64,000 nt of DNA from Streptomyces graminofaciens (lineage in GTDB: Bacteria > Actinomycetota > Actinomycetes > Streptomycetales > Streptomycetaceae): positions 6,168,001 to 6,232,000 of the forward strand of contig NZ_AP018448.1 in assembly GCF_030294945.1 (NCBI RefSeq). Direction: 5' to 3'. Below, in pieces: positions 8,017-43,336 of this stretch. Position 1 is the stretch's first letter, and every line of letters begins with the position of its first letter. Under the pieces are notes generated by a model. It was given only the letters and a program-made list of their open reading frames with translations. It was not told the origin of the DNA and did not search any database. The translations under genes were made by a program, and so were the position numbers.

Positions 8017-8039
8017 GGACCGACCCCCTCCCTGAGATC

Positions 8040-8052
8040 TGACGGTCCGTCA
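8040..8052. promoter_or_regulatory. operator palindrome 1, TGACGGTCCGTCA
   Basis: Perfect 13-bp inverted repeat, 24 bp before the acyl-CoA dehydrogenase start, in the 112-bp divergent region. It belongs to the family of sites repeated across the window. Confidence 0.8.
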
Positions 8053-8106
8053 TATTAGGCCCGCGCCGCACACATGCCCAGCCCCGACACCAGTCCCGAC
8101 ACGCGG

Positions 8107-8127
8107 TATCTGATGTACCGTCAGATA
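8107..8127. promoter_or_regulatory. operator palindrome 2, overlapping a leaderless start
   Basis: The core TGATGTACCGTCA (8111-8123) lies within a longer TATCTGA...TCAGATA inverted repeat (8107-8127). It ends one base before the ATG at 8129, so a bound repressor would cover the start of the thiolase-like gene. No ribosome binding site is present. Confidence 0.8.
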
Positions 8128-8128
8128 C

Positions 8129-9334
8129 ATGGCTGCTGCTGCGACGCCGAACCACCGCCGCAAGGTCGCGATCGTCGGCGTCTCCCTCTCCGACTGCGGA
8201 CGCGTGGAGGACTCCACCGGACCGGCGACCCCCTACGCCCTCCACGCCCAGGCCGCCCGCCGCGCCCTCGCCGACGCCGGCCTGGACCGGAGCCTCATCG
8301 ACGGCCTGGCCTCGGCCGGCCTCGGCACGCTCGCACCCGCCGAGGTGGCCGAATATCTCGGTCTACGCCCGAACTGGGTCGACTCGACCTCCGTCGGCGG
8401 CTCCACCTGGGAGGTGATGGCGGCCCACGCGGCGGACGCGATCGCCGCCGGACACGCGAACGCCGTACTCCTCGTCTACGGCTCCACGGCCCGCTCGGAC
8501 ATAAAATCCGGCCGCCGCACCGGCAACCTCTCCTTCGGCGCGCGCGGCCCCCTCCAGTTCGAGGTCCCGTACGGCCACACGCTGATCGCCAAGTACGCCA
8601 TGGCCGCGCGCCGCCACATGCACGAGTACGGCACCACGCTCGAACAGCTGGCCTCGGTCGCCGTACAGGCACGGGCGAACGCGGCGGCGAACCCCGAGGC
8701 GATGTTCCGGACGCCGCTCACCGTCGACGACGTCCTCTCCTCCCCGCCGATCGCCGACCCCTTCACCAAGCTGCACTGCTGTATCCGCTCCGACGGCGGC
8801 GCGGCGGTACTGCTGGCGGCCGAGGAGTACGTACGGGACTGCCGTACGGCCCCGGTGTGGATCCTCGGCACCGGCGAGCACGTCTCCCACACCTCCATGT
8901 CCGAGTGGCCCGACTTCACGGTCTCCCCGGCGGCGGTGAGCGGCCGCCTCGCCTTCGAGCGGGCCGGGGTACGACCGGAGGAGATCGACTTCGCCGAGAT
9001 CTACGACGCCTTCACGTATATGACCCTGGTGACGCTGGAGGACCTGGGGTTCTGCGGGAAAGGGGAGGGCGGGGCGTTCGTGGGGACGAACGCGGAGAAG
9101 GGGCGACTGACCCTGTCCGGCGAGCTGCCGGTGAACACCGACGGGGGCGGGCTGTCCGCCCAGCACCCCGGTATGCGCGGCCTGTTCCTCCTCGTCGAGG
9201 CCGTACGACAGCTGCGCGGCGAGGCCACCGGCCGCCAGGTGCGGGCCCGCGACGGCGACCTGCCCCGGCTGGCGGTCGCCTCCGGCACGGGCGGCTGGTT
9301 CTGCTCGTCGGGGACGGTGGTGCTGGGCCGCTGA
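8129..9334 (+). CDS. thiolase-superfamily lipid-transfer protein (Ltp2-like), lacking the usual nucleophilic Cys
   Basis: A 401-aa member of the thiolase/SCP-x superfamily. It keeps family landmarks: an N-terminal strand KVAIVGVSLSDCG, IYDAFTYMTLVTLEDLGF, and NTDGGGLSAQHPGMRG in place of the thiolase NxxGGxxxxGHPxG. Where canonical thiolases have the active Cys it reads SVGGSTWEVM, with Ser/Gly and no Cys. Homologues with this change, such as mycobacterial Ltp2, are aldolases that split steroid side chains together with a DUF35 protein; a DUF35 gene lies at 21892-22317 under the same type of operator. A retro-aldolase or other C-C lyase role is therefore inferred. The start has no Shine-Dalgarno and abuts the operator, suggesting leaderless mRNA. 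Confidence 0.85.
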   Translation: MAAAATPNHRRKVAIVGVSLSDCGRVEDSTGPATPYALHAQAARRALADAGLDRSLIDGLASAGLGTLAPAEVAEYLGLRPNWVDSTSVGGSTWEVMAAHAADAIAAGHANAVLLVYGSTARSDIKSGRRTGNLSFGARGPLQFEVPYGHTLIAKYAMAARRHMHEYGTTLEQLASVAVQARANAAANPEAMFRTPLTVDDVLSSPPIADPFTKLHCCIRSDGGAAVLLAAEEYVRDCRTAPVWILGTGEHVSHTSMSEWPDFTVSPAAVSGRLAFERAGVRPEEIDFAEIYDAFTYMTLVTLEDLGFCGKGEGGAFVGTNAEKGRLTLSGELPVNTDGGGLSAQHPGMRGLFLLVEAVRQLRGEATGRQVRARDGDLPRLAVASGTGGWFCSSGTVVLGR

Positions 9335-9408
9335 CGGCGACTACCGCGCCCCCGCCCGGCGCTCGCCGTCCGGCGCCCTCGGAGTTCTCGCGCTCAGCGC
9401 GCCGAATC

Positions 9409-10288: not shown

Positions 10289-11041
10289 TCAGCGGGACGG
10301 GGTCCAGGGCAGTTCGTCCTTGTACGCGTTCACCGGCTTGGCGATCTTCTTGACGGTACGGGCGTCCAGGGCGGCCGGGGCCGAGCCGGTGCCGAGGGTG
10401 CCGCCGGGGTGCCAGGTGCCGGTGACGGAGACCCAGGTGTCGGCGGCCGGGGCCGACGCCCCGTACATCCGTACCTTGACGAACTGGGCGTCGGCCGCGC
10501 AGCAGGAGAAGATCGTCCGGGTCAGCTCCCAGCCGTCGCCGTCCTTGCGGGGCGTGACATAGCCGCTCAGCTGGACGCTGCGCCCCTTGATGGCCCGCTT
10601 CTTGTCCTGCTGCACCCGGCTGGTGAAGTCGGTGAGGGTCATGGGCAGCGGTTTCGTGGTTTTGGGCAGCGGTTCGAAGTCGTCCTGCGCCACGACCGCC
10701 TTGGGGGCCTCCCGGGCGGCGGTGTACGCGCCGAGGGCGGGCGGGGCGAAGAAGAGCAGGCTGAGGGCGGGGAGGAGCAGCAGCCAGGAGATGCGGGGGG
10801 TGGCGGAGTGGTCGTGAGCGTGGCCGTCCCCGTGATCGTCGGGGGCTTCGGTCGTCGCCGTCCTCCTCCTCAGTGACCACGCCTCGGCCAGCCCCAGCAG
10901 GACCAACAACACCCCCGACACCACGAGCAGCGGCCGCATCCCCTCCTTCACGTACCGCAGGCACAGGTCGGTGAAGAGGGACGCGTGGAGTACGCCGAGA
11001 CCGCTGAGGAGGAGCAGGACGGCCTGGACCGGACGTTTCAC
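10289..11041 (-). CDS. TIGR03943/DUF1980 family membrane protein (YcgQ-like)
   Basis: A 250-aa protein with two N-terminal transmembrane helices, a His/Asp-rich loop (DDHGDGHAHDHS, about residues 68-79), a third helix, and a C-terminal domain with VQLSGYVTPRKDG and FSCCAADAQFVKVRM, which are hallmarks of the family. It is always paired with a permease of the DUF318 family; here its GTG start overlaps the permease stop as GTGA. The His-rich loop suggests metal handling, and related pairs have been linked to metal homeostasis, but the transported species is not established. No Zur-like operator was recognised upstream. Confidence 0.85.
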   Translation of the reverse strand: MKRPVQAVLLLLSGLGVLHASLFTDLCLRYVKEGMRPLLVVSGVLLVLLGLAEAWSLRRRTATTEAPDDHGDGHAHDHSATPRISWLLLLPALSLLFFAPPALGAYTAAREAPKAVVAQDDFEPLPKTTKPLPMTLTDFTSRVQQDKKRAIKGRSVQLSGYVTPRKDGDGWELTRTIFSCCAADAQFVKVRMYGASAPAADTWVSVTGTWHPGGTLGTGSAPAALDARTVKKIAKPVNAYKDELPWTPSR

Positions 11042-12075
11042 AGAAGGACCCCTCCCACGAGCACGCTGCAGATGATCGCCACGACGGCCGTGGCGGCGGA
11101 GAAACGGACCGCGAAGGCCCGGCCGAACGTGCCCGTCTGGAGGGCGATCAGCTTCAGGTCGACCATGGGCCCGATCACCATGAACGCCAGCCGCGCGGTC
11201 GGCGAGAACCCGGTGAGCGAGGCGGCCACGAACGCGTCCGCCTCGCTGCACACGGAGAGCAGTACGGCGAGCGCGGCCAGGAACAGTACGGACAGCCAGG
11301 GCGAGCCGGAGAAGGTCTCCAGGACGGAACGGGGGACGGCCACGTTGAAGGTCGCGGCGGCCATGGCTCCGACGACCAGGAAGCCCCCCGCGTGCAGGAA
11401 GTCGTGCTGGAAGCCGAGCCGGAACTCCTCCCAGCGGCTCCGCCCCGGCTGGTGTCCCGTGTGCCTGACCGTCGGCCTGAGCCACTTCTCCTTCCCCAGC
11501 CAGAGCCACAGCCAGCCCATCACGGCGGCGACGACGAGCGAGGCGACCAGCCGGGCCACGACCATCTCGGGGCTGCCGGGAAAGGCGATGGCGGTGGCGG
11601 TCAGCACGACCGGGTTCACGGCGGGCGCCGACAGCAGGAACGCGAACGCGGCGGCCGGGGTGACCCCCCGCCCGATCAGACTGTTCGCCACCGGCACGGA
11701 CGCGCACTCGCACCCCGGCAGCACGACGCCCGCGACCCCGGCGACGGGCACGGCGAGCGCGGGCCGCTTCGGCAGGACCTTGCTGAACACACTGGCGGGC
11801 ACGAAAGCGTTGATCGCACCCGAGAGAGCCGTCCCGAGCAGCAGAAACGGCAACGCCTGCACGCTGATCGCCAGACACACCGTCCGCCAGGCCTGCACGG
11901 CCGGGGCATCCATCCACCGCCCGGCGGCGAAGAGCACGAACCCGGGCACGACGGCCGCGCCGAGCAGGAGGAGGGGCCAGTGGCGGGGCCAGCCGCCGCC
12001 CTCCGACATGGCCTCGTCGTCGGCTCTCCCCGCCTCCGCGACCGGCGGCTCGGCCAGGTCGTCTGTCTTCTGCAC
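11038..12075 (-). CDS. permease of the DUF318/UPF0718 family (YcgR/ArsP-like)
   Basis: A 345-aa integral membrane protein with about eight helices and the family signature GVVLPGCECASVPVANSLI, in which Cys residues sit in a membrane-embedded motif. Members include ArsP and YcgR and are thought to move metal or metalloid species or small organic molecules. It is coupled by a GTGA overlap to the YcgQ-like partner downstream, forming a two-gene operon. I chose the GTG at 12075, which has GGAG five bases upstream; an ATG at 12009 is possible but lacks a good site. The first helix begins soon after residue 30. Confidence 0.85.
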   Translation of the reverse strand: MQKTDDLAEPPVAEAGRADDEAMSEGGGWPRHWPLLLLGAAVVPGFVLFAAGRWMDAPAVQAWRTVCLAISVQALPFLLLGTALSGAINAFVPASVFSKVLPKRPALAVPVAGVAGVVLPGCECASVPVANSLIGRGVTPAAAFAFLLSAPAVNPVVLTATAIAFPGSPEMVVARLVASLVVAAVMGWLWLWLGKEKWLRPTVRHTGHQPGRSRWEEFRLGFQHDFLHAGGFLVVGAMAAATFNVAVPRSVLETFSGSPWLSVLFLAALAVLLSVCSEADAFVAASLTGFSPTARLAFMVIGPMVDLKLIALQTGTFGRAFAVRFSAATAVVAIICSVLVGGVLL

Positions 12076-12222
12076 GCCGGCTCCGATGGTCAGATGTTCG
12101 GATCGACCATATCCGGGGCCTCCGGGTCGACGACCACGACCCGTGCGTGCCGCCGGGATCTGGCGGATTCGGCGGGGAGGGTGGTTACGGATTCGGCCAC
12201 GGTCCCGCGTGACAATCAGGGT

Positions 12223-12903
12223 ATGAGTGCCGACGCCACCTCCGAGTTCCTCAAGTCGCTGCGATCCCTCCGGGTCTGGGACCCCGAGGTCACCGCGCTC
12301 TCCTCCTTCGACCCGGTGGCCGACGCCACCGCCGAGCCGCTGTCCCTGTTCACCCGCTGGTTCGTGGACGCCGTGGCGGCCGGGCAGGTCGAGCCGCACA
12401 CGATGTCGCTGGCCACGGTGGACGAGGAGGGGCGGCCGGACGTGCGTGTCGTGATGCTGCACGACGCCGACACGCGCGGCTGGCACTTCGCCACCCACGC
12501 CGGGAGCCGGAAGGGGCGCCAGCTGGCGGCACAGCCGTACGCCGCCCTCTGCTTCTACTGGACCTCGCTCGGCCGCCAGGTGCGGGTGCGCGGCCGGGTC
12601 ACGGTCGCGCCCGCCGAGGTGGCGCACGCCGATCTGCACGCCCGGTCGACGGGGGCGCTGGCCGCCGCGCTCGTGGGGCACCAGAGCGAGGTCCTGTCCT
12701 CGTACGAGGAGTTGGAGCGGGCGTCGGAGGCGGCGTGGGCCCGGGCCGAGCGGGAGCCGGACGTGCCCGTGCCGTCCTGGACGGCGTATGTGCTGGAGCC
12801 GGAGGAGGTGGAGTTCTTCCAGGGGGATGCCCGGCGACGGCATGTGCGAGTCAGCTACCGCCGCGGCGGCGGGGACTGGGTTCGCGAGCTGCTCTGGCCG
12901 TAG
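12223..12903 (+). CDS. pdxH: pyridoxamine 5'-phosphate oxidase family (PdxH-like)
   Basis: A 226-aa FMN flavoprotein homologous to pyridoxamine/pyridoxine 5'-phosphate oxidase, the last step of pyridoxal phosphate formation and salvage. Visible motifs are PHTMSLATVDEEGRPDVRVVML (FMN-binding barrel), HFATHAGSRKGRQLAAQPYA and the C-terminal VEFFQGDARRRHVRVSYRR, which corresponds to the PdxH RLHDR-type end. The C-terminus is less canonical than E. coli PdxH, so a PdxH-like enzyme with a different amine substrate is possible. It stands alone, divergent from the permease operon, and converges with the next gene across only 18 bp. Confidence 0.8.
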   Translation: MSADATSEFLKSLRSLRVWDPEVTALSSFDPVADATAEPLSLFTRWFVDAVAAGQVEPHTMSLATVDEEGRPDVRVVMLHDADTRGWHFATHAGSRKGRQLAAQPYAALCFYWTSLGRQVRVRGRVTVAPAEVAHADLHARSTGALAAALVGHQSEVLSSYEELERASEAAWARAEREPDVPVPSWTAYVLEPEEVEFFQGDARRRHVRVSYRRGGGDWVRELLWP

Positions 12904-12921: not shown

Positions 12922-14319
12922 TCAGTGGTCGGTCTCCAGGTGGAGCTTGAGGAGGTCGATGCCGTAGTCGCCGCCGTTCGGGGTGCGGATGATGGTGTGG
13001 ATGTGCTGCTGGGTGGGGGTGCCGCCGGGCCCGCCCGCCCCGCCGCCGCTGTTGCCGTCCTTGTTCCCGTAGGCGAGGGGGGACTGGGCGTCGTACTCGA
13101 TGAGGACGACCGGGCTGTGCACGCGGTAGTAGAACGCGGAGTCGTCGTCCGTCTCGCCGATCCAGTAGAAGTACGTGGCGTCGAGGTGGTCCTCGACCTC
13201 CTTCATCTTCACCTCGGCGTGGCCGTCGGCCATGTTGCCGACGTAGGTGCGGACGAGGTCGAGGAGCTTGTCGCGCTGGGTGTCGGTCCAGTCGGCGGCG
13301 GCGAGGCCCTGGTGGGCGAGCTGCAGGTTGTCCTGGCCGGCACCGGCCTTGAGGTTGTCGCCCGCCTTGGACTCGGACGAGATCACCTTCTTGCGCTGGG
13401 CATCGGTGAGGGAACGGAGGACCGTGAGCCCGGCCTTCGTCTCCTTCTTGAAGAGGGTGATCTTCTCGCCGTTGTACGTGGCGGAGGTCGGCTCGGAGCC
13501 CATGAAGGTGGGGGTCATGACGACCTGGTCGCCGAGGACGAAGTAGTTGATGGCCAGGTGGTGGCCCTCGTACTGGAAGCCCCACGGCTTGGTCGTCGAG
13601 GGCGTGCCCATGAAGGTGAAGAAGTAGGCGCCCTCGGTGAGGGTGTCCCTGCCGCCGCCGCTGTAGTCGCCGAGGAACGCGTTGAGCTTCATGATGTTGC
13701 GGGACTGGGTGAGCCCGTCGGCGGACAGGGCGGCGCCGAGGAGGGCGTAGCCGAGGTCGCGCTGCTTGTCGGTGAGGTCGCCCATGCGGGCGCCCTGGCG
13801 TTCGTAGCCGTCGACGTTGCTCCAGGCCAGCCACTCGTCGTCCTCGATGTCGAAGACGGAGGCCTTGCGTTCCTTGGTGGTCAGGCCGTCGAGAAAGGCC
13901 TGGGCCTTCTGGACGACCTTGTCGGTGGAGACGTCTGTGGAGTGGATGGAGTAGAGGTCGCCCGCGACCTTGCCGTCGGTGGTGACGCCGACGAAGTCCG
14001 CGTACTTGACCGCGGAGGCGCCCGGGCCCATGCCGCCTCCGCCGCCTGCGCCGGGGCCTCCGGAGGGCATGCCGTTCGGGGCGGAGGAGGAGGACGCGCT
14101 CGCGGAGGACGAGGTCGAGGACGAGCCCGAGGAGCAGGCGGCGGTCATGGTGGCCATCGCGGCGACACCGCCGGTCAGCAGGGCCTTGTTCATGAACCAG
14201 CGGCGGGTGCGCTCGTGCTCGGGGGTGCGGGGGCGGTGGCCGTGGTCGTGGCCGTGGTCGTGAGGGTGGGGGTGAGCGTGGGAGTGGGGGTGCGTGTGGT
14301 CGTGTCCGTGTCCATGCAT
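12922..14319 (-). CDS. Tat-type lipoprotein, DUF3500 family, with polyhistidine N-terminus
   Basis: A 465-aa exported protein. The first 28 residues have His at every second position from 2 to 28 (14 His), followed by a twin-arginine signal TRRWFMNKALL, a hydrophobic stretch and a lipobox TAAC with a Ser-rich linker. The mature part (about residues 100-460) matches the DUF3500 family, with GAYFFTFMGTPS and YEGHHLAINYFVLGD; its biochemical function is not known. The His tail precedes the Tat signal and would remain on the cytoplasmic side or be cleaved. An internal start just before the signal is possible. It lies downstream of the methyltransferase gene on the same strand. Confidence 0.75.
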   Translation of the reverse strand: MHGHGHDHTHPHSHAHPHPHDHGHDHGHRPRTPEHERTRRWFMNKALLTGGVAAMATMTAACSSGSSSTSSSASASSSSAPNGMPSGGPGAGGGGGMGPGASAVKYADFVGVTTDGKVAGDLYSIHSTDVSTDKVVQKAQAFLDGLTTKERKASVFDIEDDEWLAWSNVDGYERQGARMGDLTDKQRDLGYALLGAALSADGLTQSRNIMKLNAFLGDYSGGGRDTLTEGAYFFTFMGTPSTTKPWGFQYEGHHLAINYFVLGDQVVMTPTFMGSEPTSATYNGEKITLFKKETKAGLTVLRSLTDAQRKKVISSESKAGDNLKAGAGQDNLQLAHQGLAAADWTDTQRDKLLDLVRTYVGNMADGHAEVKMKEVEDHLDATYFYWIGETDDDSAFYYRVHSPVVLIEYDAQSPLAYGNKDGNSGGGAGGPGGTPTQQHIHTIIRTPNGGDYGIDLLKLHLETDH

Positions 14320-14428: not shown

Positions 14429-15283
14429 CTACTCCTTCTCCCACACGGACACGTGCTTGGTGCTCTCGTTCGTGAACGGCTCGCGGTTCCAGTCGGCCCA
14501 GCGGTGGCGCAGTCGCATTCCGGCGAGCCGGGCCATGAGGTCCAGCTCGGCCGGCCAGACGTACCGGAAGGGGAGCGACCACAGCTCTGTACGCCCCGTG
14601 CTCTCGTCGACGACCCGGACATGGTGCGACCGCATCCCCTGCGTGGCCACGTCGTACGTGGTGAACCCCAGCCGCGTCGGCCCCACGTGGAAGGGGACCG
14701 CGTTCTGCCCCGGAGGCAGCCTGCGCAGTTGGGGCACACCGACCTCGATGACGAAGCGCCCGCCCGGTACGAGGTGCGCGGCGGCGTTGCGGAAGCAGTC
14801 GACCTGGGCGTCCTGGGTGGTGAGGTTGTTGATCGTGTTGAAGACGAGGTACGCGAGGGTGTAGTCGCCGTCCACGCGGGTGGTGGCGATGTCGCCGATG
14901 GTCACGCCGATGCCGTCGCCGCCCGGCTTGGCGCGCAGCCGCCGCACCATGGCCTGCGAGATGTCGATGCCGTGCACGGGGATGCCCCGGCGGGCGAGGG
15001 GGAGGGCGAGGCGGCCGGTGCCGATGGCGAGTTCGAGGGCGCGGCCGTGCTCACCGGCGAGCTCGGCCAGAAGGTCGACAGCCGGTTCGACGGCGTCCGG
15101 CTGGAACATCTCGGCGGAGGAGTCGTCGTAACGGGCGGCGATGGCTTCACCGAAGTAACCGTCGGGGTCGTCGGGGGTGAGGTACGCGTCCTGCGGGTCC
15201 TGCGCCTTCTGGTCCTGGCCCCGCTCCCGCTCCTGCTCCTGCTCCTGCTTCCGCTCCTGCTCCTGCTCCCGCTGGTCCATCAC
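14429..15283 (-). CDS. class I SAM-dependent methyltransferase
   Basis: A 284-aa protein. The Rossmann SAM-binding motif I is ALELAIGTGRLALPLA, followed by the acidic end of strand 2 (VHGIDIS) and motif II LVPGGRFVIEVGVP. The first 30 residues are a charged Glu/Gln/Arg repeat encoded by repeated GAGCAG-type codons, probably a low-complexity extension; the globular domain begins near YFGEAIAARYDD. The fold resembles small-molecule methyltransferases of the methyltransf_25 type. The substrate is unknown. It is about 110 bp upstream of the DUF3500 gene on the same strand, and its own upstream region is the start of the mobile zone. Confidence 0.85.
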   Translation of the reverse strand: MMDQREQEQERKQEQEQERERGQDQKAQDPQDAYLTPDDPDGYFGEAIAARYDDSSAEMFQPDAVEPAVDLLAELAGEHGRALELAIGTGRLALPLARRGIPVHGIDISQAMVRRLRAKPGGDGIGVTIGDIATTRVDGDYTLAYLVFNTINNLTTQDAQVDCFRNAAAHLVPGGRFVIEVGVPQLRRLPPGQNAVPFHVGPTRLGFTTYDVATQGMRSHHVRVVDESTGRTELWSLPFRYVWPAELDLMARLAGMRLRHRWADWNREPFTNESTKHVSVWEKE

Positions 15284-21366: not shown

Positions 21367-21895
21367 CCCCCCGACCACGGGCTTCGGGCAGCACCCAGTA
21401 CCCGACGACGGCCCGACGCATGAACGTATCGATGCCGTTCAGCCCGATCTGCCCGAGCGTGGCCCCGGTCTCCGCGTCGACGATCCGGAAGGCGCAGGAC
21501 TTCCCGTCCGCGTCCCAGCGCGCCCGCTCCCGCAACGACTCCCGGGCGTCCTCGACCGTCTCCTCCAGGGAGATGGGCGTGTTCCACCGCCTGAACTCCG
21601 GATCGGTACGCCCCCGGAACCACGCGTCGACATCGGCGTCGGACTCGGCGTCCCAGGAGCAGAAACGCAGGCCGAGGCCGTGGGGCTCGGGGCGGGAGGG
21701 GTTCTCTGTGCGGGGGGCTTCGAAGGCCGCCTGGGGGCCTTCGAGGGTTCCGGAAACTCCGGGCGCTTCAGGTGGGCCGGGCGCTTCAGGTGCTTCAGGT
21801 GGGCCGGGCACTTCAGTCGCTTCGGGTGCTTCAGGCGCTTCGGGTGCTCGCTCATCCGTCTCATTCACCGGGTCATTGAAACCCGTACACGTCAC
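21361..21895 (-). pseudogene. 5' part of the GNAT acetyltransferase gene with PEAP-repeat N-terminus
   Basis: The N-terminal half of the split GNAT. It starts with a GTG at 21895 that overlaps the TGA of the DUF35 gene (GTGA), so it was the third gene of the DoxX-DUF35 operon. A low-complexity segment of PEAPEAPGP-type repeats (encoded at about 21768-21850) precedes the GNAT fold: LGLRFCSWDAESDADVDAW, RWNTPISLEETVEDA, GQIGLNGID and VVGYWVLPEARGRG. After GRG the frame enters the TnpB element and ends within about 20 bp. The product lacks half of the acetyl-CoA site and is probably inactive. Confidence 0.85.
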
Positions 21896-22763: not shown

Positions 22764-22794
22764 GGGGTGCGTCCTTCCGCATCCGCGCGGTTTC

Positions 22795-22807: not shown

Positions 22808-22864
22808 GTTCAGCGGATGGGGGGTGCGGGCGCAAGAGTGGCGTCAGCTCCAGCAAGCACGCCC

Positions 22865-25964: not shown

Positions 25965-25982
25965 GTTCAGTAGTCTGAAATC

Positions 25983-29197: not shown

Positions 29198-29259
29198 GGC
29201 CTGTCACGAACAGAACACGACGATCCCCAGGTGACCGGGCCCGCGCGGCCCTTCACTTC

Positions 29260-29272
29260 TGATGCACCGTCA
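29260..29272. promoter_or_regulatory. operator palindrome 6, TGATGCACCGTCA
   Basis: Within TTCTGATGCACCGTCAG, 18 bp upstream of the flavin reductase start. Confidence 0.8.
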
Positions 29273-29290
29273 GGTTCACTGGGTGATGTG

Positions 29291-34105: not shown

Positions 34106-35155
34106 TCAGAAAGTCAACACCCCCCGAGCCACCTTCCCCGCCTCCGCGTCCGCCGCCGCCCGCTCGAACTCCTCCACCGGATACGTCTGCGTCACCAGCT
34201 CGTCGAGGAGCAGCCGCCCGTCCCGGTACAGCTCGGCGTACAGCGCGATGTCCCGTTGCGGCCGTGACGAGCCGTAACGGCAACCCAGGATCGACTTGTC
34301 CAGGTACATGGACGCGACGGCGAACGACGCCTCGGCCCCGGCCGGTGGCACCCCGAGCAGGATCGCCTGGCCGTGCCGGTCCAGCAGGTCGATCGCCTGC
34401 CGGACGAGCTCCACGCGCCCGACGCACTCGAACGCGTGGTCCACCCCGGTCGGCAGCAGATCCCGCACCCCCTCGGTCGACGTCAGGAAGTCGGTCGCCC
34501 CGAACTGCCGCGCCACCGCCTCCTTCGCCGGATTGGCGTCGACGGCGACGATCCGCGACGCACCCGCGATCCGAGCGCCCTGCAGAACATTGAGCCCGAT
34601 CCCACCCGTACCGATCACGAGCACACTGTCCCCGTGATCCACCTTCGCCCGGTTGAGCACGGCGCCGACCCCGGTCAGCACCCCGCACCCGATGAGCGCG
34701 GCGGACGCCATCGGGATGTCCTCCGGGACACGTACCGCCTGCACCGCCCGCACCACGGTCCGTTCCGCGAACGCGGAGTTGCAGGCGAACTGGAAGACGG
34801 GACGCCCCTCTTGGGAGAACGGCTGCCCCGGCCGCCCGATCGCCCGACGGCACATGGTCGGCCGCCCCCGGCCGCAGTCGGCGCACGCACCGCAGCTGGC
34901 GAGCGTGGACAGGGCCACATGGTCACCGACCCGGACATGGGCGACCCCCGCACCCACCGCCTCGACGACCCCCGCGCCCTCATGCCCGAGCACCACCGGC
35001 ACAGGAAAGGGAATGGTCCCGTCCACCACTGACAGATCGCTGTGACAGAGCCCGGCCGCAGCCACCGCGACCAGCACCTCACCGGGCCCTGGCTCCCGCA
35101 CCTCCAGGTCGCCCACGACCTCGACCCGCTTCCCGTCGAACACCACGCCGCGCAT
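34106..35155 (-). CDS. zinc-dependent alcohol dehydrogenase (MDR family)
   Basis: A 349-aa medium-chain dehydrogenase. The catalytic zinc site is GLCHSDLSVVDG plus GHEGAGVVEAVG, the structural zinc site is CGACADCGRGRPTMC (four Cys), and the NAD site is VIGTGGIGLNVLQGARIAGA. It belongs to the class often annotated as Zn-dependent ADH in actinobacterial steroid and terpene clusters, and should oxidise a hydroxyl formed in the pathway, or reduce an aldehyde. Its ATG overlaps the stop of the upstream acyl-CoA dehydrogenase gene (TGATG), so the two are coupled. No operator lies at its own start; expression probably comes from the SDR promoter at 37.4 kb or a local one. Confidence 0.92.
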   Translation of the reverse strand: MRGVVFDGKRVEVVGDLEVREPGPGEVLVAVAAAGLCHSDLSVVDGTIPFPVPVVLGHEGAGVVEAVGAGVAHVRVGDHVALSTLASCGACADCGRGRPTMCRRAIGRPGQPFSQEGRPVFQFACNSAFAERTVVRAVQAVRVPEDIPMASAALIGCGVLTGVGAVLNRAKVDHGDSVLVIGTGGIGLNVLQGARIAGASRIVAVDANPAKEAVARQFGATDFLTSTEGVRDLLPTGVDHAFECVGRVELVRQAIDLLDRHGQAILLGVPPAGAEASFAVASMYLDKSILGCRYGSSRPQRDIALYAELYRDGRLLLDELVTQTYPVEEFERAAADAEAGKVARGVLTF

Positions 35156-36309
35156 CAAACGACCCCCTTGGGCTCCCTGGGCAGACCGAGCACCCGCTCG
35201 GCGATGATCGTGCGCTGCACCTCGTCCGAACCGCCGTAGATGGTGTCGGCCCGGCTGAACAGGAACAGCTGCTGCAACGGATCGAGCACGTACGGCGCGC
35301 CGGCCGACCAGTCCTCCGGCCCCACGGCCGCCCGCGCGCCCCGCACCTCCATGGCCAGCTCCCCGAGCCGCCGGTGCCACCGCCCCCACAGCAGCTTGGC
35401 CACACTGGGCGCGCCCGGCTCCCCCGAACCCCCCAGCGTCCGCAGCGCGTTCCACCGCATCACCCGCAGCTCGGCCCACTGCCGCACGAGCCGCTCCCGT
35501 ACGACGGGGTCCGCCACGGCACCACTGTCCACGGCCGCTCGTACGACGAGCCCCAACTCCTGCTCGAAACCGATCTGTTGGGCAAGGGTGGACACCCCCC
35601 GCTCGAACCCGAGCAGGCTCATGGCGACCCGCCACCCGTTCCCCTCACCCCCCACGACGTGCTCCACGCGCGCGCGTGCCCCGTCGAAGAACACCTCGTT
35701 GAACTCGCTCGTCCCGGTCATCTGCCGGATCGGCCGCACCTCGACGCGCCCCGGCTGATCCATCGGTACGAGCAGGAACGACAGCCCGTGGTGCCGCCGC
35801 GAGCCCTCCTCCGTACGGGCCAGCACGAAGCACCAGTCGGCCTCATGGGCGAGGGAGGTCCAGATCTTCTGACCGGTGACGCGGTACGTCCCGTCGCCCG
35901 CGCGCTCGGCCCTGGTACTCACCCCGGCGAGATCGGAACCGGCCCCCGGCTCGCTGTACCCCTGGCACCACAGCTCCTCGCCCCGCGCGACAGCGGGCAG
36001 GAAGCGCCGCTTCTGCTCCTCGCTGCCGTGCGCGATGAGGGTCGGCGCCAACAGCTTCTCCCCGATGTGCCCCGACCGGGCGGGTACACCGGCCCGGGCG
36101 TACTCCTCGGCCCACAGCACCTGCTGAATGAGCGTGGCGGTGCGGTTGCCGTACCCGCCTTCATCCCAACCCAGCCCGATCCACCCGGCGGCACCGAGCC
36201 TGCGCTCCCAGGCGCGCCGATCCGAGACACCGCCGCCACGGGCCGCCTCCAGCCAAGCCCTGGCCTCGCCCCGAAACGCCTCGTCCTCTTCGCTGAACCC
36301 GAAGTCCAT
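35155..36309 (-). CDS. acyl-CoA dehydrogenase
   Basis: A 384-aa flavoprotein. The N-terminal part has MDFGFSEEDEAFRGEARAWL, the FAD/substrate region LWCQGYSEPGAGSDLAGVST and WTSLAHEADWCFVLART, and the C-terminal end RADTIYGGSDEVQRTIIAERVLGLP, which matches long-subunit FadE proteins of steroid type (FadE17/FadE26-like pattern). It likely desaturates a bulky acyl-CoA. GGAGG lies 3 bases from the ATG at 36309, a close but usable spacing. It is coupled to the Zn-alcohol dehydrogenase gene, and 155 bp separates it from the upstream SDR gene, with a dispersed Streptomyces repeat in the gap. Confidence 0.9.
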   Translation of the reverse strand: MDFGFSEEDEAFRGEARAWLEAARGGGVSDRRAWERRLGAAGWIGLGWDEGGYGNRTATLIQQVLWAEEYARAGVPARSGHIGEKLLAPTLIAHGSEEQKRRFLPAVARGEELWCQGYSEPGAGSDLAGVSTRAERAGDGTYRVTGQKIWTSLAHEADWCFVLARTEEGSRRHHGLSFLLVPMDQPGRVEVRPIRQMTGTSEFNEVFFDGARARVEHVVGGEGNGWRVAMSLLGFERGVSTLAQQIGFEQELGLVVRAAVDSGAVADPVVRERLVRQWAELRVMRWNALRTLGGSGEPGAPSVAKLLWGRWHRRLGELAMEVRGARAAVGPEDWSAGAPYVLDPLQQLFLFSRADTIYGGSDEVQRTIIAERVLGLPREPKGVV

Positions 36310-36362
36310 GCCACCTCCACGGTGAACCGCTACGGATGCCGAACAACCGGAGTCGCGCAGTC

Positions 36363-36466
36363 CGGATCTTTCAGGGGCGCGGGGAACTGCGCGACCAGCC
36401 ACAACGCACCCACACCCGCCCCACACCCCACACCCCGCACCCCGCACCCCGCACCCCCGAGCTGTC
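36363..36466. repeat. dispersed intergenic repeat, copy A
   Basis: It contains GGATCTTTCAGGGGCGCGGG, then GAACTGCGCGACCAGCCACA and, after a CACCCCGC-rich part, GCACCCCCGAGC. Copy B is at 48480-48565, and an inverted partial copy C is at 55672-55742. Confidence 0.75.
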
Positions 36467-37382
36467 AGGCGCCCGCGTTCGGCCGCTCCCCAGCCGCCGC
36501 AGCCCTCCCCATCGCCTCCACCCGCTCAAGCATCGGCATCGGATCCACCCCCACCGACCCCGGCAAGATCTCCGCGACCCGCTCCGGTGTCCAACCGCCC
36601 TCGGCATACGCGGCCCGCAGCTCCCGCGGCTGCGCCCAAACCGCAAGCTTCTGGCCCGCGATCGTGTACACCTGCCCGGTGATCCCCTCCTCGGAGGCCC
36701 GAGACGACAGCAGATACACGACCACCGCAGCCACGTCCTCCGGCTCACCGATCTCCGTCAGCTCCATCGGCACTCCCGCCGACATCCGCGTACGGGCGAC
36801 CGGCGCCACCGCGTTCGCGGTCACCCCGTACTTGTGCAGGCCCAGCGCGGCGCTCCGCACCAGCGAAATGACCCCACCCTTCGCCGCGCTGTAGTTCGCC
36901 TGCGAAACAGACCCCTGATGGTTCCCGCTCGTAAAACCGATCAAGGTGCCGGCCCTCTGCCGACGCATGACCGCCGACGCAGCCCGGAACACCGTGAACG
37001 TGCCCTTGAGATGCGTGGCGACCACCGGGTCCCACTCCTCCTCGGACATGTTGAACAGCATCCGCTCCCGCAGGATCCCGGCGACGCACACCACCCCGTC
37101 GATACGCCCGTACGACGCCAGCGCCACGTCCACGACCCGCTGCCCGCCCGCCATCGTCGACACGTCGTCGGCGACGGCGACGGCCTCACCCCCGGCCGCC
37201 TCGATCTCCTTGACCACGGCCTCGGCGACTTCACTCGTGGGCGAAACGCCGTCCACGGACACCCCGTAGTCGCTGACGACGACCCGCGCCCCCTCCGCCG
37301 CCGCCGCGAGAGCCACCGCCCGGCCGATCCCGCGTCCCGCTCCCGTGACGGCCACGACCTTGCCTGCCAAGAAGTTCGCCAC
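36465..37382 (-). CDS. short-chain dehydrogenase/reductase, MFE-2/17-beta-HSD4-like
   Basis: A 305-aa classical SDR. The cofactor motif TGAGRGIGRAVAL (TGxxxGxG) is at about residues 13-25, the catalytic Ser is in GFTSGNHQG, and the catalytic Tyr-Lys is in NYSAAKGG. The length and the long C-terminal extension (WAQPRELRAAYAEGGWTPER) resemble the 3-hydroxyacyl-CoA dehydrogenase unit of multifunctional enzyme 2 rather than simple SDRs, so it probably oxidises a 3-hydroxyacyl-CoA to the 3-oxo form. GTG start with AGGGGAAGGGG upstream. Operator site 7 lies 30 bp before the start. It is divergent from the cyclase gene. Confidence 0.9.
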   Translation of the reverse strand: MANFLAGKVVAVTGAGRGIGRAVALAAAAEGARVVVSDYGVSVDGVSPTSEVAEAVVKEIEAAGGEAVAVADDVSTMAGGQRVVDVALASYGRIDGVVCVAGILRERMLFNMSEEEWDPVVATHLKGTFTVFRAASAVMRRQRAGTLIGFTSGNHQGSVSQANYSAAKGGVISLVRSAALGLHKYGVTANAVAPVARTRMSAGVPMELTEIGEPEDVAAVVVYLLSSRASEEGITGQVYTIAGQKLAVWAQPRELRAAYAEGGWTPERVAEILPGSVGVDPMPMLERVEAMGRAAAAGERPNAGA

Positions 37383-37411
37383 CGACGACCCCTTCCCCTC
37401 ACCGCAGTTTC

Positions 37412-37424
37412 TGACGGACCGTTA
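37412..37424. promoter_or_regulatory. operator palindrome 7, TGACGGACCGTTA
   Basis: Within TTTCTGACGGACCGTTAGA, 30 bp before the SDR start. 12 of 13 positions fit the consensus. Confidence 0.75.
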
Positions 37425-37442
37425 GATTTCCCAACTCGGATT

Positions 37443-37455
37443 CTACGACCCGTCA
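37443..37455. promoter_or_regulatory. weak operator-like site 8, CTACGACCCGTCA
   Basis: The right half is perfect (CCGTCA) and the left half matches at 3 of 6. It lies 31 bp from the centre of site 7 and 31 bp upstream of the cyclase gene start. Confidence 0.4.
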
Positions 37456-37485
37456 GACGCAGTCCCACAAGCCCCGGGAGGGCCG

Positions 37486-38430
37486 ATGTCACTACCCACC
37501 CTTCATCCGGAGTTCCGCGACATAGCCAAGCGCGTCAACAACTGGGGCCGCTGGGGCGCGGACGACGAGATCGGCACCCTCAACCTGATCACCGACGAGG
37601 TCGTACGCGAGGCCGCCGCGACCGTCCGAAGCGGCCGGCGCGTCCCGCTCGCCCTCCCCCTCCAACACGACGGCGTGCAGACGGGGATGCTTCCGGGCCG
37701 GGTCAACCCGCTCCATGTCATGGTGCAGATCAACCAGGAGCTCTTCGGCCCGGGCACGGTCGCGTGCAGCGACGACGCCGTGACCATGGGGCTCCAGGCG
37801 GCCACCCACTGGGACGCCCTCACCCATGTCTCGCACTCGGGCCGCATCTACAACGGCCGCCCGGCGGACACGATCACCCCGCACGGCGGTGCCACCTTCG
37901 CCGGGATCGACAAGGCACGGCACATCGTCTCGCGCGGCGTCCTCCTCGACATCCCCCGCGCCCTGGGCCTCGGCGCCGGCGACCGGCTGCCCGGCGGCCA
38001 TGCGATCAGCCCCGAAGACCTGGACGCGGCGGAGGAGTTGGCGGGCACCCGCGTTCGCGCGGGCGACATCGTGCTCGTCCGCACGGGGCAGGTCCAGGCC
38101 CTCCTCGCGGGGGACAAGCACGCGTACGCGTTCCCGTCGCCGGGGCTGTCGCTGCGTACGCCGGAGTGGTTCCACGCGCGCGATGTGGCCGCCGTCGCCA
38201 ACGACACGATGACGTTCGAGATCTTCCCGCCGGAGATCGAGGACCTGTGGCTGCCTGTGCACGCCCTGGACCTGGTCGAGATGGGGATGCCACAGGGCCA
38301 GAACTGGAATCTCGAAGAGTTGTCCACAGCCTGTGGAGAAACCGGCGGCTACGACTTCCTGCTGTCGGCGATGCCCGAGCCGTTCGTCGGCGGCACGGGA
38401 ACACCCGTGGCACCGGTGGCCATCCTGTAG
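37486..38430 (+). CDS. cyclase-family (kynurenine formamidase-like) metal hydrolase
   Basis: A 314-aa protein of the Cyclase/KynB family. The metal-binding region is ATHWDALTHVSHSGRIYNG, equivalent to the HxxTHxDxPxH signature with Thr/Gly changes, and VHALDLVEMGMPQGQN near the C-terminus supplies the family's second conserved block. Members hydrolyse or lactonise small cyclic amides and esters, and they recur beside acyl-CoA dehydrogenases and amidohydrolases in actinobacterial degradation clusters. It may open a lactone or ring intermediate. GGGAGG lies 5 bases before the ATG. It is divergent from the SDR gene across a 103-bp region with operators. Confidence 0.85.
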   Translation: MSLPTLHPEFRDIAKRVNNWGRWGADDEIGTLNLITDEVVREAAATVRSGRRVPLALPLQHDGVQTGMLPGRVNPLHVMVQINQELFGPGTVACSDDAVTMGLQAATHWDALTHVSHSGRIYNGRPADTITPHGGATFAGIDKARHIVSRGVLLDIPRALGLGAGDRLPGGHAISPEDLDAAEELAGTRVRAGDIVLVRTGQVQALLAGDKHAYAFPSPGLSLRTPEWFHARDVAAVANDTMTFEIFPPEIEDLWLPVHALDLVEMGMPQGQNWNLEELSTACGETGGYDFLLSAMPEPFVGGTGTPVAPVAIL

Positions 38431-40040: not shown

Positions 40041-40925
40041 TCAGGCCGGCTCCCCCAATAGATCACCCGCCAACAGCTCCTCACTCTCCGTCACCGATCC
40101 ACCACATTGGGCCCGTACCCACGCACGCTTCAGACACAGGTGTACGTCGGCCTCCCACGTGAACCCCATGCCGCCGTGCACCTGGAGGCAGTCACGAGCC
40201 CCGCGCACCGCCGCCTCGTCGGCGAGCAGCCGGGCCGCCGCCATGTCCACCGGGTCGGCGGTCACGGCCGCCGCGTACACCGCGGCCCGCGCCACCTCCA
40301 CCCGCACCAACGACTCGGCACACAGCCGCTGCACCGCCTGGAACGCCCCGATCGGCCGCCCGAACTGCTCCCGGGTCCGCGCGTATCGCACCGCCAGCTC
40401 ACCGGCCCGCCCGGCCGTCCCCAGCTGCTCGGCCGCCGTCAGCAGCATGAACAACGGGTCCGGCGCACCCGCGACCGCCGCCCGGTGCAGCGGCGTCAGA
40501 GGATCCACCGACCTGAGCGGTACGGCCCCGGCCGCGTCCCCCCGTACGACGTCCGCCCCGTCCAGCCACGTCACCAGCCCGCCGTGCACGGCGGTCACCA
40601 CGGTCTCCCCGGTGGCGGCCCCCGGTACGGTGCCGGCCGCGAGATGCGTGGCCACGAGGGGTCCCGGCAGCAGGGCACGGCCCGCCTCCTCGAACGCCAA
40701 CACGGCCTCCGGCAGCCCGAGTCCGACCCCGCCCTCCGCCTCCGGCAGGCGCAACGCGAAGAACCCGGCCTCGCCCAGCTCCCGCCACAGCCTGCGGTCG
40801 AGCCCTCCCGAGTCCACTGCCGCCCGCAGCGCGTCCCGCCCGAAGCGCCGCTCCAACAGCCCGCGCACCCCGGCCCGCAACGCCAGCTGGTCCTCCGTCG
40901 GTTGGAAACGCATCGAAGAGATCAC
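40041..40925 (-). CDS. short acyl-CoA dehydrogenase subunit
   Basis: A 294-aa member of the acyl-CoA dehydrogenase family, about 80-90 residues shorter than usual. The N-terminal helices (PTEDQLALRAGVRGLLERRF) and C-terminal domain (YARTREQFGRPIGAFQAVQR, LQVHGGMGFTWEADVHLCLKRA) are present, while the middle beta-domain is reduced. In steroid degraders such short chains form alpha2-beta2 heterotetramers with a neighbouring full-length chain, as in FadE26-27 or FadE28-29. The gene overlaps its full-length partner by GTGA (GTG 40925); an ATG at 40913 is the alternative. It is the last gene of the amidohydrolase-ACAD-ACAD operon. Confidence 0.88.
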   Translation of the reverse strand: MISSMRFQPTEDQLALRAGVRGLLERRFGRDALRAAVDSGGLDRRLWRELGEAGFFALRLPEAEGGVGLGLPEAVLAFEEAGRALLPGPLVATHLAAGTVPGAATGETVVTAVHGGLVTWLDGADVVRGDAAGAVPLRSVDPLTPLHRAAVAGAPDPLFMLLTAAEQLGTAGRAGELAVRYARTREQFGRPIGAFQAVQRLCAESLVRVEVARAAVYAAAVTADPVDMAAARLLADEAAVRGARDCLQVHGGMGFTWEADVHLCLKRAWVRAQCGGSVTESEELLAGDLLGEPA

Positions 40926-42055
40926 CGCCCTTTCGGCAGGCCCAGGATCCGCTCGGCCACGATGTTCCGCTGGATCTCGGAGGTCCCGGCCGCGATGGTG
41001 TACGAGAGGGAGGACAGCCGGTCGAGGACCCAGCGGCGGTCGAGGTCGAGCGAGGCCGCGCCCAGGACCTCGGCGGCGGCGTCGTACAGCTCCTGACGCG
41101 CGCGCGAGTACCTCAGTTTGAAAACCGAACCCCCGACACCGGGCATTCCACCACTGGCTTCCGCCTCGCTGACGTTCCACTGCGTCAGCCGCCACAGCGC
41201 ACGGAACTCGGCGTTCAGCCGCCCGAGCCGACGGCGTACGGCCGGGTCGTCCCAACGCCCGTTCGCCCGCGCCTCCCGCGCGACCTCGCCCAACACGCGC
41301 CGACAGGCCACCACTTCCCCCACGAACGCCGTACCGCGCTCGAACGACAGGGTCACCATGGTCACGCGCCAGCCGTCGTTCTCCTCCCCGACCCGGTTGG
41401 CCACCGGGACCCGCACCTCGTCGAGGAAGACCTCGGCGAACTCGGTGGAACCGGCGAGGGTCCGCAGGGGCCGTACGGTCACGCCGGGCGCGTCCATGGG
41501 CATGGCCAGCCAGGTGATCCCGCGATGCCTGGGGGCGTCCCCGTCCGTGCGGACCAACAACTCGCACCAGTCGGCGACTTCGGCGTGGGAGGTCCAGATC
41601 TTGGAACCGCTCACCACATAGTGGTCACCGTCCTTACGGGCACGCGTGCGAAGTGAGGCCAGGTCCGACCCGGCGTCCGGCTCGCTGAACCCCTGACACC
41701 AGACCTCGTCGCCGCGCAGGATCGGCGGCAGCCACCGGGCCCGCTGCCCGGCCGTGCCCTCGGCGGCGATCGTGGGCCCGGCGTGCAGCAGGCCCACGAA
41801 GTTCGCGCCGACATAGGGCGCGCCCGCCTTCTCCGTCTCCTCCAGGAAGATCAACCGGGTGGTCGGCGAGGCGTCCCAGTGGACGTCGGCGTACCCGGCG
41901 TCGTACAGCATCCGCTGCCAGCCGAGGTCGTACGCGCGCCGTCCGGGCCAGTCGTCGGGCGACGGCTTCGGCGGCAGCGAGGGCAGCGCCTTCGCCAGCC
42001 ACTCCCGCAGCCGCGCCCGGAACTCGTCCTCCTCCGGGGTGTGGGCGAGGTCCAT
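40922..42055 (-). CDS. acyl-CoA dehydrogenase, full-length subunit
   Basis: A 377-aa flavoprotein. Landmarks: MDLAHTPEEDEFRARLREWL, VWCQGFSEPDAGSDLASLRT, KIWTSHAEVADWCELLVRT, LSFERGTAFVGEVVACR and the C-terminal AAGTSEIQRNIVAERILGLP. It matches the long partner of heteromeric steroid-type acyl-CoA dehydrogenases, with the short partner encoded immediately downstream. Its ATG overlaps the TAA of the amidohydrolase gene (TAATG). Together they would form a bifunctional FAD enzyme acting on a bulky, probably branched or ring-bearing acyl-CoA, an inference from subunit architecture. Expression should come from the operator-controlled promoter at 43.28 kb. Confidence 0.92.
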   Translation of the reverse strand: MDLAHTPEEDEFRARLREWLAKALPSLPPKPSPDDWPGRRAYDLGWQRMLYDAGYADVHWDASPTTRLIFLEETEKAGAPYVGANFVGLLHAGPTIAAEGTAGQRARWLPPILRGDEVWCQGFSEPDAGSDLASLRTRARKDGDHYVVSGSKIWTSHAEVADWCELLVRTDGDAPRHRGITWLAMPMDAPGVTVRPLRTLAGSTEFAEVFLDEVRVPVANRVGEENDGWRVTMVTLSFERGTAFVGEVVACRRVLGEVAREARANGRWDDPAVRRRLGRLNAEFRALWRLTQWNVSEAEASGGMPGVGGSVFKLRYSRARQELYDAAAEVLGAASLDLDRRWVLDRLSSLSYTIAAGTSEIQRNIVAERILGLPKGR

Positions 42056-43251
42056 TACTTGTCGAAGTCCAGGTCGAGCATGCGGATCGCGTTGCCGCGC
42101 ATCAGCTTGTAGACCGTCTCGTCGTCGAGGCCCTTCACATGGTCGAGGGCGACCTCCTTGGTGTGCGGGAAGGTCGAGTCGACGTGCGGATAGTCGGTCT
42201 CGAAGGTGGCGTTGTCCCGGCCGACCACGTCCAGGGACGCGACCCCGTGCTTGTCCCGGAAGAAGCAGCAGTACATCTGCCGGTAGTAGTACGTGGACGG
42301 CGGCTCGGGGATCAGATCGCGGACGCCGCCCCAGGCGCGGTGCTCCTCCCAGACGTCGTCGGCGCGTTCGAGGGCGTACGGGATCCAGCCCATCTGGCCC
42401 TCGCTGTACGCCAGCTTGAGGCGCGGGTGGCGCACCAGGACCCCGCTGAAGAGGAAGTCCATCATCGACGCCATCGCGTTGTTGAAGGAGAGGGAGGCCT
42501 GGACGGCGGGGGGCGCGTCCGGTGAGGCGGCGGGCATCTGGGAGCTGGACCCGATGTGCATGTTGATCACCGTCCCGGTCTCCTCGCACACCCCGAAGAA
42601 GGGGTCCCAGTAACCGGAGTGGATGGACGGCAGCCCCAGATGGGTCGGGATCTCGGAGAAGGTGACCGCGCGCACGCCCCGGGCCGCGTTCCGGCGGATC
42701 TCCGCCACCGCGAGGTCGATGTCCCACAGCGGGATCAGGCACAGCGGGATGAGCCTGCCGCCGCTGTCGCCGCACCACTCCTCGACCATCCAGTCGTTGT
42801 AGGCGCGCACACAGGCCAGCGCGACCTCCTTGTCGTGCGCCTCGGCGAAGGTCTGCCCGCAGAAGCGCGGGAAGGAGGGGAAGCAGAGGGAGGCCTCGAC
42901 GTGGTTGAGGTCCATGTCCGCGAGCCGCGCCTTGGGGTCCCAGCAGCCGCGCCGCATCTCCTCCCGGGTGATCCCCTCCAGCGTCATCTCGTCCCGGTCG
43001 AAACCGACGGCGGCGATGTTCCGCTTGTACGGGAACTTCAGGTCCTCGTAGATCCACCAGTCGGTCGGCTGCCCCTCCGGATCCATCGTGATCTGGTACT
43101 TCCCGGCGACGTACGCGAGCTCCCCGATCCCGGCGGTGAGGGCCTGCGGCCCGCGCTCGCGGTACTTCTCGGGCAGCCAGGTCTCGAAGAGATGCGCGGG
43201 CTCAATCACATGGTCGTCGACGCTGATGATGCGGGGCAGTTCGGTCGTCAT
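42055..43251 (-). CDS. amidohydrolase of the ACMSD-like TIM-barrel family
   Basis: A 398-aa metal-dependent hydrolase or decarboxylase of the amidohydrolase_2 family. The metal-site start SVDDHVIEPAHLFETWLP is a VDxHxxEP variant, and later blocks are NHVEASLCFPSFPRFCGQTF, INMHIGSSSQMP (a His ligand) and FETDYPHVDSTFPHT (the C-terminal Asp). Members include ACMSD and gamma-resorcylate decarboxylase. Similar genes are frequent next to acyl-CoA dehydrogenases in actinobacterial steroid or aromatic clusters, where they may hydrolyse ring lactones or thioesters; the exact reaction is unknown. It is the first gene of the operon, with two operators in the 85-bp divergent promoter. Confidence 0.88.
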   Translation of the reverse strand: MTTELPRIISVDDHVIEPAHLFETWLPEKYRERGPQALTAGIGELAYVAGKYQITMDPEGQPTDWWIYEDLKFPYKRNIAAVGFDRDEMTLEGITREEMRRGCWDPKARLADMDLNHVEASLCFPSFPRFCGQTFAEAHDKEVALACVRAYNDWMVEEWCGDSGGRLIPLCLIPLWDIDLAVAEIRRNAARGVRAVTFSEIPTHLGLPSIHSGYWDPFFGVCEETGTVINMHIGSSSQMPAASPDAPPAVQASLSFNNAMASMMDFLFSGVLVRHPRLKLAYSEGQMGWIPYALERADDVWEEHRAWGGVRDLIPEPPSTYYYRQMYCCFFRDKHGVASLDVVGRDNATFETDYPHVDSTFPHTKEVALDHVKGLDDETVYKLMRGNAIRMLDLDFDK

Positions 43252-43279
43252 GGGTCCCCTCCGCCGGACGGTATCGATC

Positions 43280-43292
43280 TGATGGTCCGTCA
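43280..43292. promoter_or_regulatory. operator palindrome 9, TGATGGTCCGTCA
   Basis: Within GATCTGATGGTCCGTCAGAT, 29 bp from the amidohydrolase start. Confidence 0.8.
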
Positions 43293-43306
43293 GATAGCAT
43301 CGCATC

Positions 43307-43319
43307 TGACGAGTCGTCA
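43307..43319. promoter_or_regulatory. operator palindrome 10, TGACGAGTCGTCA (perfect)
   Basis: Within ATCTGACGAGTCGTCAG, just before the RBS of the AMP-forming ligase gene. Its centre is 27 bp from that of site 9. Confidence 0.8.
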
Positions 43320-43336
43320 GCCAAGGAGGGGTGGCC

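Follow-up and report, generated by a model that had tools for sequence, protein, structure and literature searches.

A 17-bp palindrome as the probable operator of a PF19352-type TetR regulator and a dispersed acyl-CoA-linked catabolic regulon in Streptomyces graminofaciens

The stretch analysed here, termed the window, comprises 64,000 nucleotides of Streptomyces graminofaciens (bases 6168001–6232000 of a single-contig genome of 11,602,651 bases), and it carries nine copies of a 17-bp palindrome together with a gene for a TetR-family regulator (5550–6197). The palindrome is probably the operator of this TetR, which, judging from the sequence, would repress a dispersed regulon of acyl-coenzyme A (acyl-CoA)-linked catabolic genes until a pathway intermediate releases it. 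Sequence comparison backs each of the following: the operator, the clustering of its copies, their position close to gene starts, the co-occurrence with the TetR, and the conserved target classes. Seven-digit positions below are those of the chromosome, and shorter ones are those of the window.

A first-pass annotation of this DNA had listed nine palindrome cores with their flanks (8040, 8111, 22795, 25952, 25983, 29260, 37412, 43280, and 43307) and a weaker candidate at 37443. All nine cores were found at these positions with the letters given, and C...G flanks the core in 8 of the 9 sites, the site at 8040 having the left C only. The consensus of 17 sites of this genome is TCTGACGG-N-CCGTCAGA (17 bp); in the following, the strict operator pattern is TCTGACGNNNCGTCAGA, and the looser pattern is CTGACGNNNCGTCAG. 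The sites in the window, to which no strand is assigned, are listed here (the nine full sites by check of the cores and by the held-out scan described below).

8038–8054: operator site, core 8040
8109–8125: operator site, core 8111
22793–22809: operator site, core 22795
25950–25966: operator site, core 25952, twin, 31 bp to the next
25981–25997: operator site, core 25983
29258–29274: operator site, core 29260
37410–37426: operator site, core 37412
37441–37457: weak candidate 37443, one half-site intact, score 7.8
43278–43294: operator site, core 43280, twin, 27 bp to the next
43305–43321: operator site, core 43307

A matrix built from the nine sites and run over 264 kb around the window revealed strong sites outside the window too. 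A second, held-out matrix was then trained on eight of these outside sites only (6104042, 6136506, 6136583, 6137399, 6143630, 6147279, 6153074, and 6153101), which lie within 6.104–6.153 Mb; lone hits above 15 (6054489 and 6245503) and all weaker hits were excluded from the training. The independently trained matrix placed the nine sites at ranks 1–9 of the window with scores of 17.2–29.0. In 40 Markov-shuffled windows, the best score had a mean of 13.4 and a maximum of 17.3, and sites above 15 averaged 0.25 per window; site 25952, the lowest-scoring of the nine (17.2), falls within reach of the best shuffle. The candidate at 37443, of which the right half-site alone is intact, did not rise above background and is dropped. 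Three pairs of full sites are twins with a spacing of 27 or 31 bp (25952/25983, 43280/43307, and 6153074/6153101).

Genome-wide, the pattern TCTGAYN5RTCA occurs at 68 distinct places, 14 of which fall within 6.104–6.211 Mb, a region that makes up 0.9% of the genome (binomial p = 2.6e-15), and the window holds 7 places versus 0.4 expected. The dense cluster spans 107 kb, and further sites lie elsewhere on the 11.6-Mb chromosome. The 35-kb set of the first-pass annotation is therefore real, but the array continues about 64 kb upstream of the window, the regulon is larger, and the earlier figure of about 17 genes is an underestimate. Twenty control stretches of 20 kb, twelve from the same genome (240 kb) and eight from three other genomes (160 kb), contained two sites above 14 and none above 18 (one stood at 18.0); across these 400 kb, the motif was thus not as common as in the cluster. 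Twenty more 20-kb stretches of the same genome, picked for a pattern match, contained 20 sites above 18, seven of which are near genes for a P450, an aldehyde dehydrogenase, a luciferase-like monooxygenase, an Ltp2-like thiolase, a FAS1_DH-DUF35 fusion near an Ltp2b-like gene (6.648 Mb), and a periplasmic binding protein (twin site). The looser pattern CTGACGNNNCGTCAG with one mismatch was found at 139 places versus 44 for its reversed control and is too loose to use. The tetranucleotide CTAG is rare in such genomes. The reversed-pattern control for TCTGAYN5RTCA (2 versus 79) was judged unfair because half of its forms contain CTAG, so the control stretches and shuffles were used instead. Two near-identical strong sites were also observed on opposite chromosome arms (L225:9403 and L224:3905; 0.988 and 10.826 Mb); their neighbours are not catabolic-looking or are directed away from the site.

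The regulator and the site at its start are described as follows.

5550–6197, plus strand: TetR-family regulator (TetR_N and TetR_C_38/PF19352), proposed repressor (Pfam, phylum distribution)
5541–5557, no strand assigned: degenerate operator that overlaps the start codon of the TetR gene, with one half-site good and the other poor; putative autoregulatory site (tenth in the held-out scan at 13.8)

The N-terminal helix-turn-helix domain of the TetR matches PF00440 at 26.8 bits (cut-off 24), and the C-terminal domain matches PF19352 at 243 bits over model positions 1–135 of 135; it is the sole PF19352 protein found in the genome. No NCBIfam model scored above its cut-off for this protein, the best (FabR, SlmA, and ScbR types) all lying below, and its relatives in the PDB were recognized at the helix-turn-helix level only. 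The TetR was detected in 197 of 199 genomes of the same genus; across the phylum, 27 of the 396 genomes sampled had a match (E 1e-20). At least 80 named loci carry the TetR, and the 80 listed comprise 66 from Streptomyces and 14 others, which by record title are metagenome-assembled genomes of uncultured actinobacterium, Actinomycetota, Acidimicrobiales, Ilumatobacteraceae, and Aquihabitans, plus two records titled Bifidobacterium breve and one titled Acidobacteria (titles unchecked). A serine/threonine-kinase-like gene (1825–4200) was seen near the TetR gene in 76 of 76 Streptomyces loci examined.

The strict operator co-occurs with the TetR. In the same 396 genomes, the strict operator was found in 21 of 27 TetR-positive versus 5 of 369 TetR-negative genomes (Fisher 4e-25) and, with the own genus removed, in 13 of 15 versus 5 of 369 (2e-18), the 13 covering eight families; as genomes are not independent, these p-values are too small. 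One of the two misses outside the genus, G050, has a near-strict site before a relative of the amidohydrolase-fold protein Amido1 (described below). Operators also lie close to the regulator: of 20 stretches surrounding the TetR gene, each at most 20 kb long, 17 contain a site above 18 (8 of 10 outside the genus and 9 of 10 in Streptomyces), as do 63 of the 80 named TetR loci listed (13 of 14 non-Streptomyces and 50 of 66 Streptomyces, some of them on short contigs). Among 17 distant orthologue loci, four (L077, L078, L080, and L082) have sites no more than about 130 bp from the TetR gene, and in L074 a site lies about 670 bp upstream of it. The co-occurrence over the phylum and the adjacency in some distant loci together support TetR 5550–6197, the first-pass guess, as the predicted binder.

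The site over the TetR start codon may serve autoregulation. Among the matches listed, the start reads TAAGCTGAC[GT][GA]CATGACAG in 66 of 66 Streptomyces loci, and the site is present in 38 of 39 loci of the sampled genomes (L116 counted through L136), the exception being L070. It overlaps a TAAGCT directly 5' of the ATG, which we take to be a -10-type promoter element and which in this position would suit a leaderless transcript. The whole block from -55 to +11 of the gene (5495–5561) is nearly invariant in the same 66 listed loci; the invariant block includes an upstream CCCCATTTGCA that is not explained by the operator.

The genes after the sites in the window, with predicted targets marked as such and operon membership judged from gene order and strand, are the following.

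6781–8016, minus strand: acyl-CoA dehydrogenase (ACAD1), predicted target (Pfam; conserved pair with Ltp2a)
8129–9334, plus strand: Ltp2-like thiolase-fold protein (Ltp2a), predicted target (Pfam Thiolase_C_1; PDB relatives 4u4e, 9myr, and 6ok1)
21892–22320, minus strand: DUF35/ChsH2-like protein (zinc ribbon and OB fold); start uncertain, open reading frame (ORF) extends to 22782
22314–22763, minus strand: DoxX-family protein, first gene after site 22795 (family scan)
26059–28311, plus strand: NDP-forming-type acyl-CoA synthetase, predicted target (Pfam ATP-grasp_5, Succ_CoA_lig, and CoA_binding_2)
28370–29197, plus strand: enoyl-CoA hydratase/isomerase, likely in an operon with the synthetase at 26059 (Pfam)
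29291–29911, plus strand: flavin reductase, HsaB-like (188 bits, below the model cut-off of 230); start inferred
35155–36447, minus strand: acyl-CoA dehydrogenase (ACAD2), likely in an operon with SDR1 (family scan)
36465–37382, minus strand: short-chain dehydrogenase (SDR1), predicted target (family scan)
37486–38430, plus strand: cyclase-family (PF04199) hydrolase, predicted target (one PDB relative, 5ibz, uncharacterised)
40041–41567, minus strand: acyl-CoA dehydrogenase (ACAD3), located downstream of Amido1; the gene itself starts later than the ORF
42055–43251, minus strand: amidohydrolase-fold protein (Amido1), DitZ/PtmU3-like, predicted target; start inferred
43331–44836, plus strand: AMP-forming acyl-CoA synthetase (ACSamp1), predicted target (family scan)

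ACAD1 and Ltp2a are divergent, with operator sites between them. Upstream of the window, sites precede two luciferase-like monooxygenases, a second short-chain dehydrogenase, a further amidohydrolase-fold protein, a further AMP-forming synthetase, and a second Ltp2-like protein with an enoyl-CoA hydratase-domain protein after it; the ORF at site 6104042 matched no Pfam family. The claim that all sites stand just upstream of catabolic genes holds for the targets listed but not for the minus-strand neighbour of 25952 (24437–25957), which was rejected as a target: it reads as secreted-type, with a DUF11 match below the cut-off, and the twin site 25952/25983 therefore most likely serves the plus-strand gene at 26059. 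A 579-residue ORF at 6137467 was also rejected as a target.

The same classes of genes follow the operator in distant relatives, which bears out the catabolic character attributed to the regulon at first sight. In a sample of 20 stretches around part of the strict matches, from ten distant genomes and with 28 sites above 18, 25 of the 28 sites have a catabolic- or uptake-type neighbour; two of the remaining three gave no family, and one was unscanned. The neighbours include Amidohydro_3, class III CoA-transferase, DUF35, acyl-CoA dehydrogenase, acyl-CoA synthetase, Ltp2-like thiolase, luciferase-like monooxygenase, aldehyde dehydrogenase, short-chain dehydrogenase, periplasmic binding protein, alpha/beta hydrolase, alkyl sulfatase-type, and Amido1 types, and the divergent partners include a subtilase, a glycerol-3-phosphate dehydrogenase, and DUF1326. 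For each of the 28 sites, a possible ORF start lies no more than about 105 bp away, a distance for which the first start after the site was taken and which thus tends to come out short. Amido1 relatives with 63–69% identity stand directly after a site in five cases (G374 twice, G382, G050, and G294). Of 10 Streptomyces stretches, 7 retain the site of the ACAD1/Ltp2a pair, and 6 retain the 27-bp twin of the ACSamp2/Ltp2b pair. A Peripla_BP_6 gene was observed after the operator both in the S. graminofaciens genome (the twin at 3.309 Mb; L233:9392 and 9424) and in the distant G374 (L260:3012), which points to an importer of the substrate of the regulon.

Binding by the TetR, repression, autoregulation, the ligand class, and the substrate class are the parts of the proposal that we infer from these patterns. 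A TetR dimer, with one half-site per subunit, would occupy the palindromes on or beside the promoters and block transcription of the dispersed regulon. The ligand would be a pathway intermediate, most likely a CoA thioester whose acid part is terpenoid- or steroid-like and cyclic or branched, and whose binding to the C-terminal domain would release the TetR from DNA and jointly induce acyl-CoA ligases, acyl-CoA dehydrogenases, monooxygenases, hydratases, and Ltp2/DUF35-type aldolase parts.

Several observations weigh against this proposal. Two Streptomyces genomes without a TetR match, G526 and G564, hold 9 and 10 copies of CTGACGNNNCGTCAG; five other genomes (G021, G057, G064, G153, and G263) carry the strict operator once or twice, again with no TetR match; and the TetR-positive G369 and G334 contain the looser pattern just 1 and 3 times, respectively, which suggests that the size of the regulon varies. 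Several sites of the S. graminofaciens genome have no evident catabolic neighbour, lying near a primase-like gene, a lectin-domain protein, a histidine kinase, or family-less proteins, or inside ORFs. The start-codon site is degenerate and lies inside the conserved -55 to +11 block, so its conservation alone proves little. As to G526 and G564, their assemblies consist of 1010 and 620 contigs, and the TetR-neighbouring kinase gene was not found in them either (E 1e-150, in a search with no positive-control genome); the fragmentation and the missing kinase make an assembly gap likely, though unproven.

The palindrome might instead be the operator of another regulator, the TetR being merely co-inherited with the catabolic neighbourhood. 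The seven genomes just named that have the motif and no detected TetR would suit this explanation, as would a LuxR-type regulator that is encoded within the cluster. We nevertheless regard it as unlikely, since the co-occurrence outside the genus extends over eight families (13 of 15 versus 5 of 369) and sites stand beside the TetR gene in 4 of 17 distant loci; moreover, G064 is 62% complete and shares its genus label with the TetR-positive G052, and G021 shares its family label with G036. That the TetR binds these sites and mainly activates, or mixes activation and repression, appears quite improbable. AtrA raised the expression of its neighbour, but TetR proteins with short intergenic regions were repressors (both according to PMC3511530), and the sites 8111, 43307, and 22795 lie a very short distance from start codons, an arrangement that fits a block to RNA polymerase. 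The repeats are almost certainly not mobile-element remnants or a chance cluster without a regulatory role, as the DDE transposase and TnpB-like genes of the region could suggest, because of the held-out matrix result, the differing bases around the sites, and the recurrence of the operator in front of matching gene classes in further families of the phylum, a cross-phylum pattern that already contradicts such an origin.

Repression by the TetR through this operator is best read, on present sequence comparison, as a KstR-like logic with a different operator and an apparently different regulator. KstR (Rv3574/MSMEG_6042) controls the mycobacterial regulon of cholesterol and lipid catabolism, and according to PMC1995591 it shares with the present system a single TetR repressor, a short palindrome at many dispersed promoters, twin sites between divergent genes, autoregulation (putative here), and acyl-CoA-linked ring or lipid catabolism. 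In contrast, the KstR operator given there is TnnAACnnGTTnnA versus TCTGACGNNNCGTCAGA here, the C-terminal domain here is PF19352, and no KstR-type NCBIfam model matched; the KstR operator was ruled out by sequence as the identity of the palindrome. A set of Streptomyces TetR regulators tested with divergent neighbours (ActR, SCO3367, SCO4099, SCO7222, SGR3979, and others; PMC3511530) is similar in having short palindromic intergenic operators and mostly repression, whereas the tabulated operators that were compared are all of other consensus, and each regulator has one divergent neighbour rather than many loci. A search of the open-licence literature listed no paper with a description of the palindrome as an operator or of a TetR_C_38 regulator.

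Ltp2-ChsH2 and Sal-Shy are Ltp2/DUF35 steroid side-chain aldolases. Genes for Ltp2-like thiolase-fold and DUF35 proteins, as putative aldolase parts, carry the same operator here; in the window they are 13 kb apart, whereas at 6.648 Mb the two kinds lie near each other. The closest PDB match of Ltp2a is 4u4e, an uncharacterised thiolase. The best PDB matches of Amido1 and Amido3 are a chain named DitZ (E 5e-55 and 3e-57, respectively) and then PtmU3 (E 4e-39 and 8e-37), and the metal-ligand positions Asp-x-His, His, Glu, and Asp..His are kept in both proteins in alignments to PtmU3 and DitZ. According to PMC7782822, which also lists the metal ligands of AibH2, PtmU3 is a diiron beta-hydroxylase that acts in diterpenoid biosynthesis and takes substrates ligated to CoA. 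Amido1 and Amido3 thus resemble the amidohydrolase-fold diiron oxygenases PtmU3 and AibH2 in sequence and metal ligands, whereas PtmU3 serves biosynthesis and the Amido genes sit in catabolic-looking units. Taken together, the CoA ligases, acyl-CoA dehydrogenases, Ltp2/DUF35 parts, several monooxygenases, and PtmU3-like proteins are best explained by a pathway that breaks down terpenoid- or steroid-like acids, cyclic or branched, by oxidative, CoA-linked steps.

Other genes of the region were noted. A DDE transposase (18346–19269) and a TnpB-like gene (19550–21337, below the NCBIfam cut-off) break up the regulon genes, and a DUF3500 protein (12922–14319) lies between an ArsP-type permease (11038–12843) and a methyltransferase (14429–15283). 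Upstream of the window, a myo-inositol catabolism-like run (6157156–6163301; L025:9156–15301) encodes a PfkB kinase, a Cgl0159-like protein, KduI/IolB, a thiamine pyrophosphate (TPP) enzyme, and an aldehyde dehydrogenase, with only a weak operator-like match inside (11.1).

With this pairing, a widespread Streptomyces TetR (197 of 199 genomes) would acquire a candidate operator, a list of targets, and a likely role. Used as a search key, the operator may also pick out the genes of one pathway (for oxygenases, CoA ligases, transporters, and aldolase parts), including in uncultured actinobacteria, in which such genes are known by general family only, and the purpose of the paralogous catabolic genes becomes testable through a single knockout. 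A broader and more tentative possibility, which we do not favour at present, is that this undescribed regulator–operator pair, whose range extends from Streptomyces to uncultured actinobacteria of Acidimicrobiales type, acts as the master switch of an unrecognised O2-dependent pathway in which cyclic terpenoid-like compounds are processed in CoA-linked form: PtmU3-type diiron enzymes would hydroxylate acyl-CoAs, and Ltp2/DUF35-type aldolases would then cut the side chains. If so, a near-universal and unassigned Streptomyces regulator would gain a function.

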